NCBI GenBank assembly: GCA_027486585.1 | Contig: JAIXOU010000099.1 | Coordinates: 1-64,000 of the forward strand | DNA: 64,000 nucleotides | Direction of reading: 5' to 3' | DNA from: Verrucomicrobiaceae bacterium | GTDB lineage: Bacteria; Verrucomicrobiota; Verrucomicrobiia; Verrucomicrobiales; Verrucomicrobiaceae | In this document: positions 1,651-31,254 of the stretch, piece after piece | How the letters are laid out: each line of letters opens with the position of its first letter | How positions within the stretch are numbered: position 1 is the first letter of the stretch | Position numbers and translations under genes: made by a program | The notes under the pieces: model-generated | Databases searched by the model: none | What the model was told of the DNA's origin: nothing | The model's input: the letters and a program-made list of their open reading frames with translations, nothing else

Positions 1651-2943
1651 TTACACTAGCATCAGCGCCGGGTTTTCCAGCAGCTTGCGCATTTCAGCTA
1701 GGAAGGTGGCAGCGACCGCGCCATCGACCACGCGGTGGTCGCCACTGAGGCCGACCCACATGCGCTGACCGACGACGATTTCACCCTTGTCGTTGACGAC
1801 GGGAGCTTTGCGAATGCTACCGATGGCGACGATGGCGGCCTGGGGTGGATTGATGATGGCGGCGAACTGGTCGATGCCGAAGGCACCGAGGTTAGAAACG
1901 GTGATCGTTCCACCAGCGAAGTCATCGGGGCTGAGCTTCTTGTTCTTGGCCTTACCAGCGAGATCCTTCACGCTTTGGCTGATTTCCATCAGGGTTTTCT
2001 TTTCAGCCTGCTTGATGACGGGTGTCACCAAACCGTCTTCGATGGCGATGGCCACACTGAGACCGACGGACTTGAATTTGACGATGGCGTCACCATCCCA
2101 GGCGGCATTGATCGCAGGCTGAGCTTGAGCGGCTCGGATGACGGATTTGAGGATAAAATCGTTAACGGTGTATTTGTTGCCACCGGTTTTCTCTGCGCTG
2201 GCGTTCAGGTGTGCGCGGAATTCCATGAGCGGACCTGCATCCACTTCCATTTGTAGGTAGAAATGGGGGATCTGGGTCTTCGAGGCCAGGAGACGCTCGG
2301 CAATGATATTGCGCATCGTGCTGGTTGGCACGCGCTCGTCATCTGGGCCATAGGTCGGGCGGATGGCTGGTGTCGCAGGTCCACGGGCTGCGCTGCTGCT
2401 GCCACCGACAGGGGCGTTTTCGACATCTTCACGGACGATGCGTCCGCCAGGGCCGGTTCCTTCGACGCTGCTTAGGTCCACGCCTTTTTCTTCAGCAATC
2501 TTGCGGGCTAGAGGGCTGGCTTTGACGCGGACATCACTAGCAGCCGCGGCGCGACGCGTCGGCTGAGGGGCGGTCGGGAGACGCGGTCCGGGAACAGAGA
2601 CGGCTTTTTTGGCACCAGCAGCTGGTTTCTCCACTTTTGGGGAAGGGGCCGCTGCAGCCTTGGCTTTGGCGATGATCTCGTCCAGGTTGGCTGGAGCTTC
2701 TTCACCGTCTTCTAAAACGACGGCTAGCGGGCTATTGAGAGGGATTTTTTCACCTGCTTTGACGAGGATGCTGTGAATGACGCCTTCAAAAAAGCAGGGC
2801 ATTTCCATCGTAGCCTTATCAGTCTCCACATCTGCCACAGATTGTCCATTGGTGACTTTGTCGCCCACTTTGACGATCCATTTGGCAATCGTGCCCTCGG
2901 TCATGGTGTCACTGAGCTTGGGCATTTCGATGATTTTTGGCAT
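1651..2943 (-). CDS. pdhC: Pyruvate dehydrogenase E2, dihydrolipoamide acetyltransferase
   Basis: A 430-residue E2 core subunit that moves the acetyl group from lipoyl-lysine to coenzyme A in the cytoplasmic pyruvate dehydrogenase complex. It has one lipoyl domain (residues 1-80, modified lysine K43 in VETDKATMEM), an Ala/Pro-rich linker, a peripheral subunit-binding domain (about 138-175, SPLARKIAEEKG) and the catalytic acetyltransferase domain (about 200-430) ending with the active-site DHRVVDG (H403, D407). The start at 2943 begins the lipoyl domain exactly (MPKIIEMPKLSD); the upstream extension of the frame looks non-coding. The MPKLSDTMTEG opening is typical of pyruvate rather than oxoglutarate E2. 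No E1 or E3 gene is adjacent, so the subunits are dispersed or the gene stands alone. Confidence 0.95.
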   Translation of the reverse strand: MPKIIEMPKLSDTMTEGTIAKWIVKVGDKVTNGQSVADVETDKATMEMPCFFEGVIHSILVKAGEKIPLNSPLAVVLEDGEEAPANLDEIIAKAKAAAAPSPKVEKPAAGAKKAVSVPGPRLPTAPQPTRRAAAASDVRVKASPLARKIAEEKGVDLSSVEGTGPGGRIVREDVENAPVGGSSSAARGPATPAIRPTYGPDDERVPTSTMRNIIAERLLASKTQIPHFYLQMEVDAGPLMEFRAHLNASAEKTGGNKYTVNDFILKSVIRAAQAQPAINAAWDGDAIVKFKSVGLSVAIAIEDGLVTPVIKQAEKKTLMEISQSVKDLAGKAKNKKLSPDDFAGGTITVSNLGAFGIDQFAAIINPPQAAIVAIGSIRKAPVVNDKGEIVVGQRMWVGLSGDHRVVDGAVAATFLAEMRKLLENPALMLV

Positions 2944-3086
2944 GGCGGAAGGGTAGGCGGCGTGTTGAGTTCGGGGAGAAAGAGGGCGGAGACTAGACGA
3001 GTCCTGAGCAAGACTCAAATTCTGTGTACCGAGAAAAAGAATCTTTTTCAACTCGGATTCTGGTTTCTCTGCGCCAAAATGCCGCA

Positions 3087-4127
3087 ATGTCTCACCCTTT
3101 AGCCATCCTCCCAGCCACAGATCCAGCCCAGATTCTTCGCCTGCGTGATCGCCAGTATGGGGCTGAGTTGATCGCGGCGGCTCTGATGCACTTTGATTTT
3201 TTCTCCTGGCTTGATCAAAACGATGGCGTGACCGACGAAGACATTTGCAAACATTTCGAGTTTGCCGCACGGCCTACGGATGTGTTGATGACGCTCTGCC
3301 GGGCCAATGGCTTCCTTACGACGGATCCTACGGGCAGGCATCATTTGGCTCAACTCGGGCGTGAGCATTTGGTCAAGGGGTCGCCTTGGTATCTGGGGCC
3401 GTATTATGCGCCGATTGAGGATACACCGATTGTGCAGGGCTTCCTGAAAGTCTTGCGCACAGGCAAGCCTGCGAACTGGCAGGCTAAGACGGATGCCAAG
3501 GATTGGCATGAGTCCATGCTGGATGAGGACTTTGCGCGCAGTTTTACGGATCTCATGAACAGTCGTGGCATGATTTTTGGTCAGTATTTGGCCAAAGCGG
3601 TGACGCCGTTGCTCGGTGGGCGTCGTCATTTGTTGGATGTCGGCGGTGGTTCAGGGATCTATTCGGCCACTATGGTCGCCGCGCACTCGGAGCTGAGTGC
3701 GACAGTGCTGGAGCAGCCACCTGTGGATGCCATTGTGCGGAAGGAGATCGCTAAGCATGGTCTCTCGAACCGCGTGCAGGTGGCTAGCGGAGACATGTTT
3801 AAGGTCGCCTGGCCAGAAACCGATATCGTGTTGCTTTCGAACGTCCTTCACGATTGGGATGTGCCAGAGATGCGTGCGCTTTTGGTGAAAGCTGCCGAGA
3901 CACTGCCTGTGGGTGGTTTGCTGATCATCCACGATGCCTTTATTAAAGATGATAAAACGGGACCGAATCCGGTGGCTGAATACTCGGCTCTGCTGATGAA
4001 CATCACCCAGGGCAAATGCTACTCGTCTGCTGAGTATGGTGCGGTTCTTCGTGAGCTTGGTTTCGCCGTGGGCCCCTATCAGGATACGGTCGCTGATCGT
4101 GGATTCATGACGGCAGTCAAGTGCTGA
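3087..4127 (+). CDS. SAM-dependent O-methyltransferase (acetylserotonin OMT-like)
   Basis: A 346-residue protein of the methyltransferase_2 family. The N-terminal part (about 10-100) fits the winged-helix dimerisation domain. The Rossmann part carries the SAM motif LLDVGGGSG (D184, G186-G190) and an acidic motif followed by SNVLHDWD, where H255 matches the catalytic base of plant-type O-methyltransferases. Small hydroxylated aromatic compounds are the usual substrates; the actual one is unknown. It is transcribed divergently from pdhC (143 bp apart) and ends 2 bp from the convergent AraC gene. ATG 3087 is preferred to an upstream GTG. Confidence 0.85.
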   Translation: MSHPLAILPATDPAQILRLRDRQYGAELIAAALMHFDFFSWLDQNDGVTDEDICKHFEFAARPTDVLMTLCRANGFLTTDPTGRHHLAQLGREHLVKGSPWYLGPYYAPIEDTPIVQGFLKVLRTGKPANWQAKTDAKDWHESMLDEDFARSFTDLMNSRGMIFGQYLAKAVTPLLGGRRHLLDVGGGSGIYSATMVAAHSELSATVLEQPPVDAIVRKEIAKHGLSNRVQVASGDMFKVAWPETDIVLLSNVLHDWDVPEMRALLVKAAETLPVGGLLIIHDAFIKDDKTGPNPVAEYSALLMNITQGKCYSSAEYGAVLRELGFAVGPYQDTVADRGFMTAVKC

Positions 4128-28126: not shown

Positions 28127-29572
28127 TCAAGCCTCAAACAACCGCTCAAAAGGCACGAGATAATCAAAGAAATCTTCGTCAGGGATGCTTGCATCCAGCT
28201 CGCCATGATAAACCAGTACTGTCCGGCAAGGCGTACCCTTGGGTAATTTAAGACGACGGATTTTCTCCTGCACATCGGTAATGCAGGAGGCAGGGATCTT
28301 ATCTCGGAGCTTTATCTCCACCACGTACAGCGACTTCTTGGTGCGTAGTAACATGTCGATCTGACAGGCTTCCGTGCGTAGCGTTTTGCCTTGAAAATAT
28401 GGACCTGCATTGAGGATGGGTGTGTTGGCTAAGTCGGTGTGGCGCAGCAGTGAGTCCCGATTGCTTAATACGAGATTCTCAAACTGTAGGCCCATGATGC
28501 TGTCCCATTGCGGCAAGGTCTCGAGTGCTCGTTTGCGATACAATCCACTGTCGATCCGCTTCTTTTCAGGCTCCACGTAGCGCAGGTAAAACCGCACATA
28601 GTTATCACTGAGTCGATATTTGGCGATGCGTTTCTCGGTGCCACCAAGTGGTGAAAAGGGCAGATCCGTGGTGATGAAGCCGCCGCTCTCTAACTCTGTC
28701 AGTGCCTCAGTGACGATGCCGCCTCGCCCGATATCGAGTATCTTGGAAAGCTCGGTGACTGTCCGCGCCGGACCGCTCAGCGCCTGACAAATGCTGCGAT
28801 AGCGATCAGCGCGACGATTGAAGACACTGCTAAAAAGATCATCAAACTCACGGAAAAGAAGCCCGCCTGCGTCAAAGCATAGGCGATGAATGTTTTGCTC
28901 CGCCGTCTGGGACGGGTCGATCTCCTCCAGATATCGAGGTACGCCGCCTGTGACGGCGAGGGTTTTGATTTTTTCCAGGACTGGAATGCGGGCCGCCTTG
29001 CCTCGCCAAAACGGAATGCACTCCGGTAGAGGCATCGGCGGCAGAGTGAAGACCCATGACGTGCGACCGACAAAGCCAGTGCTCTTGAGCAGGTTCTCTT
29101 CGATCCAAGACGACACCGAACCACAGATCACCACAACAAGATTTTTTCGGAGGCTGAATAGATTGTCCCAGGCAATCTTGAGATGCCCAGCAAAGTCACG
29201 ATCACCCGCCGCCATCCAGGAAATCTCGTCGAGCAACAGCACAACCTTGCCACTGTTCGGCAGGGCAGTTGCCATGATCTGGAAAGCTTGCGGCCAGCTT
29301 TCTAGGGTCATGCGTGGCAGTTTCGTCTGGGCAGCGAGCTGCTTAGCAAAAGCCGTGAGCTGCGAGGTAAGGCCTCCGCCCTCGCGTGGTCCAAGACCTT
29401 CAAACTTTAGAAAATGATCTGCATACTTCTCACCGCAATGCGCCACAAAAGCACTTTTGCCAATGCGTCTTCTTCCTTGCACGACGACCAGCGAAGCCTT
29501 GTTTTTTCGAAACAAGCGCCCGAACTGATCCGCATAAAATGCGCGTCCATGAAAGGTATTGAGTGAAGGCAT
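28127..29572 (-). CDS. Archaeal-type AAA ATPase with C-terminal DUF234 nuclease-like domain
   Basis: A 481-residue protein. The AAA/STAND-like ATPase has Walker A GRRRIGKS (33-40) and Walker B VVLLLDEISW (D115, E116), followed by ICGSVSSW (sensor 1). A winged-helix region lies at about 270-330. The C-terminal DUF234 part holds an acidic-D...E-x-K pattern (QIDMLL then VVEIKL, about 403-422) like restriction-endonuclease-fold nucleases. Relatives are scattered among bacteria and archaea, often in mobile or variable regions; function is unknown. The gene is alone, with opposite neighbours, and a regular 54-bp repeat array lies directly upstream of its start. Confidence 0.88.
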   Translation of the reverse strand: MPSLNTFHGRAFYADQFGRLFRKNKASLVVVQGRRRIGKSAFVAHCGEKYADHFLKFEGLGPREGGGLTSQLTAFAKQLAAQTKLPRMTLESWPQAFQIMATALPNSGKVVLLLDEISWMAAGDRDFAGHLKIAWDNLFSLRKNLVVVICGSVSSWIEENLLKSTGFVGRTSWVFTLPPMPLPECIPFWRGKAARIPVLEKIKTLAVTGGVPRYLEEIDPSQTAEQNIHRLCFDAGGLLFREFDDLFSSVFNRRADRYRSICQALSGPARTVTELSKILDIGRGGIVTEALTELESGGFITTDLPFSPLGGTEKRIAKYRLSDNYVRFYLRYVEPEKKRIDSGLYRKRALETLPQWDSIMGLQFENLVLSNRDSLLRHTDLANTPILNAGPYFQGKTLRTEACQIDMLLRTKKSLYVVEIKLRDKIPASCITDVQEKIRRLKLPKGTPCRTVLVYHGELDASIPDEDFFDYLVPFERLFEA

Positions 29573-29579
29573 GCGAAGG

Positions 29580-29744
29580 ATGATGTCGATTTCGTGCTCG
29601 ATTTATTTATATAAAAAAGAGCACCAAATCAACATGATGTCAATTTCGTGCTCTAAATTGACTCAAATTTAAGAGCACCAAATCAGCGTGATGTCGATTC
29701 TGTGCTCCTAATCGTCAGGATAAATCGAGCACTAAATCGACAAT
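29580..29744. repeat. Three 54-bp tandem units of alternating half-sites
   Basis: Forward half-sites ATGATGTCGATTTCGTGCTC start at 29580, 29634 and 29688 with few changes. Reverse half-sites GAGCACCAAATCAACAT start at 29619, 29673 and 29727. Both sets have exactly 54-bp spacing, and 19 bp separate the arms within each unit. The array covers nearly the whole gap between the ATPase start (29572, minus) and the DUF1501 gene. It could be an operator array, a replication iteron-like site or a recombination site; the sequence alone does not decide. Confidence 0.85.
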
Positions 29745-29817
29745 GCATGGGTCACAAAACAACCCATCGTCCCGCAAAGACGTGACTGGCGCACACGTTA
29801 TGAGTAGTGGAAACTTG

Positions 29818-31254
29818 ATGATGATCACCCGCCGCCAACTCCTTCAATCTGCTGGTCAAGGCTTTGGAGCCCTAGCGTTCACCTCCCTAGAGGCAGCAGA
29901 GCAGCGGCAACGCGCACTGTCCGTTCCTCCGAAGGCGAAGCGTGTGGTGCAGCTTTTCATGGGCGGTGCCGCCAGTCACATCGACCTCTTTGATTTCAAG
30001 CCAGCGCTTATCAAACATCATGGCGAGAATTCCGATTTCGGTGAAGCCGTGGAAGCTTTTCAAAACGGTCTCGGCCCCTGGAAGAAGCCCGTGTGGGATT
30101 TCAAACCTTACGGCCAGAGCGGCAAGATGCTCAGCGAAGTCGTCGCACCACTAGGCATCTGTGCAGATGACATGGCCTTCGTGCATAACATGGTGGGTAA
30201 AACGGGCGTGCATTCTCAAGGCACACTGTTGCAAGCGACAGGTTTCAACTTGCCGGGTTTCCCCGGCATGGGCTGTTGGGTCAGTTACGGCCTCGGCTCG
30301 CTTAGCGACAATCTGCCCACCTTTGTCGTGCTGCCGGATCATCGAGGCTTTGCTTCGAATGGCCCGAAAAACTGGGACAGCGCCTTTCTGCCATCGCAGC
30401 ATGCAGGCACCATCATTTATCCCGGTGCGGAGACGCCCATCAGCGATCTGTTTCCCCATAAATCAGGGCGTTACATCTCGGCGAGGTCGGACCGCGGAGG
30501 TTTTGAGCTTCTGGAGCAGTTAAACCGAAAACACATGCAGCATCGTGAGGAAGACTCGCGGCTCGACTCGCGAATCAAGAGCTACGAACTCGCGGCCAAA
30601 ATGCAACTCGCCGCGCCGGAAGCTCTCGACATATCAAAGGAGTCTGATGCGATGAAAACGATGTATGGCATCCAGGAGCATCGCAAAGTCTGGCCCACGG
30701 AAATCAATCCCGAAGAAGAAGCCGACTACATGGGCCGCAAGTGTCTCACTGCGCGCCGACTCCTAGAACGTGGTGTGCGTTTCGTGCAAATTTGGAGTGG
30801 TAACGACAACGGCTTTCCTCGTCGTAATTGGGACAGCCACGAAGACGTCGAGCGCGATCACGGCCCGCTCGCCTGGGGCATGGCGAAGGCCGTTAGCGCC
30901 CTGATTATGGATCTCAAACAGCGAGGCATGCTCGACGACACCATCATCCTCTGGACCACCGAATTTGGCCGCATGCCCAGCACGCAGGGCGGCAAAGGTC
31001 GCGACCACAACCCCTATGTCTTTACCAACTGGCTCTCCGGCGGCGGTATCCAGGGCGGCGTGGTGGCCGGCGAAAGCGACCAATGGGGCTACAAGCCACT
31101 AGATCGCTCGAATCCGACGACCTGCTACGATATTCATGCGACCATGATGCACCTGCTCGGCATCGATCATGAGAAGCTCACCGTGCGGCATAACGGCATC
31201 GACCGCCGACTCACAGATGTGCACGGTCATGTGATCAAAGAACTGATCGCATAG
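29818..31254 (+). CDS. DUF1501 secreted protein
   Basis: A 478-residue DUF1501 protein with a Tat-like signal (MMITRRQLLQSAGQGFGALAF). Characteristic motifs are VQLFMGGAASHIDLFDFKP, GMGCWVSYGLGS, GVRFVQIWSGND, NWDSHEDVE, TEFGRMP and GRDHNPYVFTNWLSGGGI. DUF1501 has a sulfatase/alkaline-phosphatase-like fold; the D and H residues in SHIDLFDFKP and GRDHNP would suit metal binding. It usually pairs with DUF1549/1553 proteins, but here it stands after the ATPase and is followed after 40 bp by an SGNH hydrolase. ATGs at 29743 and 29800 are possible but 29743 falls in the repeat array. Confidence 0.9.
   Translation: MMITRRQLLQSAGQGFGALAFTSLEAAEQRQRALSVPPKAKRVVQLFMGGAASHIDLFDFKPALIKHHGENSDFGEAVEAFQNGLGPWKKPVWDFKPYGQSGKMLSEVVAPLGICADDMAFVHNMVGKTGVHSQGTLLQATGFNLPGFPGMGCWVSYGLGSLSDNLPTFVVLPDHRGFASNGPKNWDSAFLPSQHAGTIIYPGAETPISDLFPHKSGRYISARSDRGGFELLEQLNRKHMQHREEDSRLDSRIKSYELAAKMQLAAPEALDISKESDAMKTMYGIQEHRKVWPTEINPEEEADYMGRKCLTARRLLERGVRFVQIWSGNDNGFPRRNWDSHEDVERDHGPLAWGMAKAVSALIMDLKQRGMLDDTIILWTTEFGRMPSTQGGKGRDHNPYVFTNWLSGGGIQGGVVAGESDQWGYKPLDRSNPTTCYDIHATMMHLLGIDHEKLTVRHNGIDRRLTDVHGHVIKELIA

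Follow-up and report, generated by a model that had tools for sequence, protein, structure and literature searches.

The array considered here lies in the window, i.e. the whole 64,000-nucleotide stretch of DNA analyzed, where it spans positions 29584-29742 between a minus-strand gene for an ATPase with a putative nuclease tail and a plus-strand DUF1501 gene. The neighbors of the ATPase gene, a lactate permease gene and the DUF1501 gene, are not known defense genes. The DUF1501 start is probably located near 29818-29824 (MITRRQLLQ, as in homologs) and not at 29743; within this region (29743-29830), the longer DUF1501 ORF call reaches the array. The locus harbors the following features:

28127..29572, minus strand: ATPase-nuclease gene (481 aa; STAND/ATPase_2, winged helix, DUF234 / PD-(D/E)xK; PADLOC PDC-S27)
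28295..28507, minus strand: predicted nuclease core, aa 356-426; E365, D406, E419 and K421 invariant in 29 homologs
28685..28732, minus strand: winged-helix recognition segment, aa 281-296; R283, I286 and V287 among the strongest operator covariation
29453..29476, minus strand: Walker A motif GRRRIGKS, aa 33-40, with little or no variation among 29 homologs
29584..29599, plus strand: one half of an incomplete unit, the outer half-site closest to the ATPase start
29619..29653: putative operator unit A, 35-bp palindrome GAGCACCAAATCAACATGATGTCAATTTCGTGCTC; half-sites 29619-29634 (minus) and 29638-29653 (plus)
29673..29707: putative operator unit B, 35-bp palindrome, 54 bp from unit A; half-sites 29673-29688 (minus) and 29692-29707 (plus)
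29727..29742, minus strand: outer half-site at the array end farthest from the ATPase start

The half-sites (TGTCGATTTNGTGCTC) begin at 29584 (+), 29619 (-), 29638 (+), 29673 (-), 29692 (+), and 29727 (-), and copies on the same strand are spaced by exactly 54 bp. The six half-sites, three per strand, the 54-bp period and the 19-bp spacing described in a preliminary description of the locus were all recovered, and its statement that the array ends at the ATPase start agrees with a distance of 11 bp between the last half-site and the start codon (29572, minus strand). A lattice detector assigned the array a score of 32.5, while among 222 control windows taken at the same loci only one reached 19. 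Throughout the 6.5-Mb genome, 20 forward and 20 reverse half-site matches with at most two mismatches were counted, the array included, compared with seven and five, respectively, for a reversed control pattern; clustering occurs only at the array, with the other matches scattered.

In one respect the preliminary description has to be corrected. The gaps between half-sites measure 19 bp within the pairs it proposed and 3 bp between those pairs, and the proper unit is not the 19-bp-spaced pair but the 35-bp palindrome, GAGCACNAAAT-N13-ATTTNGTGCTC, that is common to relatives and occurs twice in the window (29619-29653 and 29673-29707). The window array is thus composed of two full palindrome units and one half-site on each side. 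This choice of unit is based on the loss of outer half-sites in close homologs, where both units are kept and one or the other outer half-site is gone (L035/L036; L037-L039), and on the geometry in distant relatives (GGGCACGAAAT-N13-ATTTCGTGCCC). A comparison of the half-sites from twelve arrays revealed invariant G, G, T, and G at positions 2, 11, 12, and 14, a nearly invariant C at position 13, and a random position 10.

The protein is a STAND (NLR-like) ATPase according to its motifs and fold. It shows a conserved Walker A motif (GRRRIGKS), a Walker B motif with the DE pair (LLLDE), and a GxP motif (GGVPRYLE). Its Pfam ATPase_2 score of 29.9 lies below the cut-off of 33.2, and its fold matches 2qen and 2fna with Z 21-22. 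PABY2304 (PDB 2qen) and SSO1545 (PDB 2fna) are the closest solved folds, followed by NLRs (RPP1, CED-4) and ORC/Cdc6. Both share the ATPase plus winged-helix fold over about 300 residues (Z 21.8 and 20.7, respectively), yet their alignment stops at model residue ~332, without the nuclease tail; to our knowledge, neither has an assigned DNA site. As the fold alignments mainly cover residues 1-375, the assessment of the tail relied on its conserved residues and on the elements predicted for it. DUF234 (PF03008) matches residues 329-424 with 23.4 bits (gathering cut-off 22.5), and the PD-(D/E)xK catalytic set is accompanied by a predicted helix (356-370) and predicted strands (405-410 and 415-426). 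We infer nuclease activity from this invariant E-D-ExK set and the predicted elements. The PADLOC PDC-S27 model PDLC04984 covers residues 9-425 (E 9.6e-75, 250 bits), and this entry as a phage-defense candidate is only a lead as to a defense role. A PDB sequence search, NCBIfam, and PHROGs yielded no useful match to the protein.

Scanning GTDB genomes with the ATPase yielded ten close homolog loci (81-99% identity), and in all ten, an array of the same motif and spacing immediately precedes the gene. Relatives with 38-64% identity harbor one to three palindromes of 35-37 bp at the same place, usually spaced by ~54 bp, whose sequence differs from one relative to another. At least two units on a 52-57 bp lattice were detected in 69 of 109 homologs (at least 38% identity) versus one of 222 control windows; the remainder mostly show one palindrome each by inspection, and L051, L052, and L059, where the array seemed absent at first detection, actually possess one unit or a weak pair. 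Palindrome scores of at least 9 were obtained for 71/87 relatives below 50% identity versus 19/348 controls, and for 21/25 more distant relatives (26-31% identity) versus 12/100 controls. The repeat-lag spectrum of 41 non-redundant homologs peaks at 53-56 bp (34 locus-lag hits; null ~0.3 per lag). Relatives carried by plasmids and phages of other phyla (Desulfosarcina, Emticicia, Butyrivibrio, phage WO of Wolbachia) have such palindromes as well; a scan of viral contigs returned few relatives (5 loci). A clear palindrome was not found in a few homologs (e.g. L219, L067, L174), which perhaps have wrong starts or are decayed copies.

The association was also followed from the side of the DNA. 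With up to three mismatches allowed, 14 of 68 family genomes contain the 35-bp unit, and every occurrence is at an ATPase gene, a gene fragment (G393), or a remnant; the sole array without an intact gene (G407, contig 3) is located ~1 kb from an ATPase remnant. The two results that the preliminary description named as refuting, homologs without any array and an array elsewhere without the gene, were not encountered: an array or palindrome upstream is the rule with few exceptions, and the only stray array adjoins a remnant.

Other arrangements are seen in some relatives. In Wolbachia phage WO (L133), an ATPase-DUF234 gene (1932-3395) lies within the phage head module, preceded by two CCGCGG palindrome copies about 56 bp apart. 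Haloarchaeal plasmids (L239, L245) show short TACTTTGAAGTA-kind palindromes every ~17 bp upstream of the ATPase gene, a different geometry in archaeal relatives. In L089, L090, L162, L163, and L168, a near-identical 47-bp palindrome (GATTTTCTTCCTATAACG..CGTTATAGGAAGAAAATC) abuts the start codon (-47 to -1), a putative second conserved type of operator in these distant relatives.

The placement of the palindromes points to a role in transcription. At 29 loci of the group with <50% identity, a distance of 3-10 bp separates the end of the palindrome from the downstream -35 box of a promoter of the TTGNNN-N17-TATAAT type, and at many other loci of this group the palindromes cluster one or more lattice steps from the promoter. 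Promoters in the more distant group seem to resemble the E. coli consensus most. With a calculated center near -60, a palindrome 3-10 bp before the -35 box would be in an operator position. The array of the window clade reaches as far as the start codon; a search within and next to the window array revealed no sigma-70-type promoter. Half-site 4 (29638-29653) contains TCAATT (TTGAC on the gene strand) in 12/12 window-type arrays, and the other half-sites differ; it may represent an embedded -35 element, for which no -10 box could be placed.

Array and gene appear to move together. The ten close homologs and the window occupy five kinds of genomic site: permease/DUF1501 flanks are found in the window and at L031, L032, L033, and L040, L036 is bordered by the upstream neighbor and the permease, and L034, L035, and L037-L039 represent separate sites again. 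Comparison of the filled L036 site with empty junctions (L103/L104) shows the change from GGATTGAAGCAGGATGAGTGG to GGATTGAAGCGGTATCCGC-[ATPase stop ... array]-GCAGGATCAGTGG, an insertion of essentially the operator and the ORF alone. Any relative of the gene is present in 29 of 68 family genomes and an intact gene of the close type in 11, the window's included. These data suggest that operator and gene move as a single-gene cassette, and the supposed mobility is thus supported for the cassette, on the grounds of the five kinds of site and the clean filled/empty comparison. At L037 (6410-6775), an esterase-like gene is present next to the cassette as a truncated tandem copy, and a gene may thus have been damaged at this site when the cassette inserted or the DNA was rearranged.

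Such mobility raises an alternative reading, in which the array is a recombination end of a mobile element, and the ATPase-nuclease excises and inserts the ~1.6-kb cassette, promoter control being secondary. The five kinds of site among proteins that are 81-99% identical, the clean insertion of the array-plus-gene unit, its patchy presence, and the predicted nuclease domain favor it. However, the repeats lie at the 5' side only, the 3' edge of the insert is no more than about 12 bp away from the stop codon, and terminal inverted repeats at both ends, as in insertion sequences or transposons, were not seen. A target duplication is not clear and amounts to at most ~3 bp (a possible AGC, at the L036 site only), the copies examined within one genome are divergent paralogs instead of identical transposition copies, and the palindrome is phased to the promoter in relatives. 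We regard this reading as improbable.

The identity of the binding protein is addressed by covariation. In none of 80 within-genome paralog pairs do both members have a common motif. Among 68 non-redundant proteins, operator distance tracks protein distance (Mantel r 0.26, with at most 0.09 in 500 permutations). When the entire protein was scanned for covariation with the overall distance removed, residues 281-300 emerged as the best 20-residue window and 283 as the best column; residue 283 came first in 54/60 subsamples and windows of the helix in 54/100 genome subsamples. Windows outside the recognition helix (e.g. 151-170, 56-75) score positive too, and shared ancestry makes partial Mantel tests liberal. 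The structure model places the recognition helix of the winged helix at residues 285-296, with 283-287 at its N-terminus. An operator of the ..CTA(A/T) type was found for 18/20 proteins with K, P, or S at residue 283 versus 4/48 otherwise (Fisher 9e-11), and H at residue 286 goes along with GGC and R/N with GTC (Fisher 4e-7). On a tree built without the helix, protein and operator change together on the same branch in four cases (P 5e-4), a count underlain by few changes.

Binding by another host regulator, with the ATPase gene merely as its target, fits these data poorly. Winged-helix host regulators are common, and a one-gene cassette could use host factors; the motif, however, differs per paralog within one genome and varies together with the recognition helix of the ATPase itself, and no further gene is part of the cassette, which makes this explanation very improbable. 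Least probable of all are hairpins of RNA or single-stranded DNA (a structured leader or processing site): inverted repeats can fold and the window-clade array comes close to the start codon, but the palindrome is upstream of the likely promoter in relatives, and a comparison of the arms led us to reject a conserved hairpin in favor of a DNA motif: those of a single unit resemble or complement each other no better than direct copies across neighboring units do, with random pairing at position 10 (0.26).

Taken together, the family-wide association, the private motifs of paralogs, the promoter placement, and the covariation of the recognition helix argue that the ATPase very probably binds its own array, and the 1:1 association and covariation make the array very probably the autoregulatory operator of the ATPase gene. 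A DNA-binding domain and a putative cognate operator at the protein's own promoter, its position taken from relatives, are both present. The autoregulated unit of protein plus DNA site envisaged in the preliminary description is therefore supported by these sequence comparisons. The full proposal, an operator bound by the ATPase, controlling its own promoter, and moving as a cassette with diversified specificity, is judged likely with considerable confidence.

Mechanistically, the winged helix (~281-296) would read 5-6 variable base pairs beside a near-constant AAAT in each half-site, and each 35-bp palindrome would take two subunits. The ~54-bp repeat (about five helical turns) would let dimers stack side by side; paired dimers, as previously proposed, would fit the two palindromes. 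The bound protein may then control its own promoter, with the palindrome before the -35 box in relatives and, in the window clade, extending as far as the start codon. The sign of this control is judged indirectly, and we think that negative feedback is likelier than activation. It would keep a potentially harmful ATPase-nuclease low until a trigger alters its ATP or oligomer state. Operator and gene would travel as a self-contained cassette, and diverging specificity would prevent cross-regulation among paralogs. A further idea, unlikely but somewhat less so than the recombination end, is that these NLR-like ATPase-nucleases are tethered to and gauge their own operator: array binding would set expression and hold the nuclease safe, and phage attack on host DNA or transcription would free and arm the protein. 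If so, the diversified operator code would keep many guards per genome independent.

The autoregulatory cassette resembles several known systems in part. Restriction-modification controllers and toxin-antitoxin regulators keep selfish or defensive genes under their own short palindromic promoter operators. They are small separate DNA-binding proteins, whereas in the window family sensor ATPase, DNA reader, and nuclease are predicted to form one polypeptide. Avs proteins and plant/animal NLRs share the STAND NTPase core (the structural matches include Avs3, RPP1, and CED-4), but sensor repeats or a separate effector domain of the Avs/NLR kind were not recognized in the window protein; we know of no operator array for them. 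STAND transcription regulators of the MalT/IniR type are promoter-binding ATPases, as predicted for the window protein. IniR is able to bind the promoter under its control, and its ATPase domain is predicted to resemble SSO1545 (PMC5760070). It targets other genes (iniBAC) and has MalT- and SdiA-like domains with no nuclease described, whereas the window protein is predicted to act on its own promoter. PDC-S27 is described as an ATPase domain fused to a member of the PD-(D/E)xK superfamily and is abundant, with 3,503 archaeal and 4,562 bacterial detections in one survey (PMC12988326); the passages describing it mention no operator, in contrast to the one predicted for the window gene. A literature search, with subscription papers thinly covered, returned no report of operators for the ATPase-nuclease family and no paper with a functional test of it.

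With its own putative operator, the ATPase-nuclease family gains a concrete, testable partner and a partial residue-to-base code, and each family copy can now be paired with its site. The findings suggest that one NLR-like protein, moving as a single-gene cassette, combines sensor ATPase, gene regulator, and nuclease, so that its function may be approached by binding and reporter assays, beyond phage screens alone.
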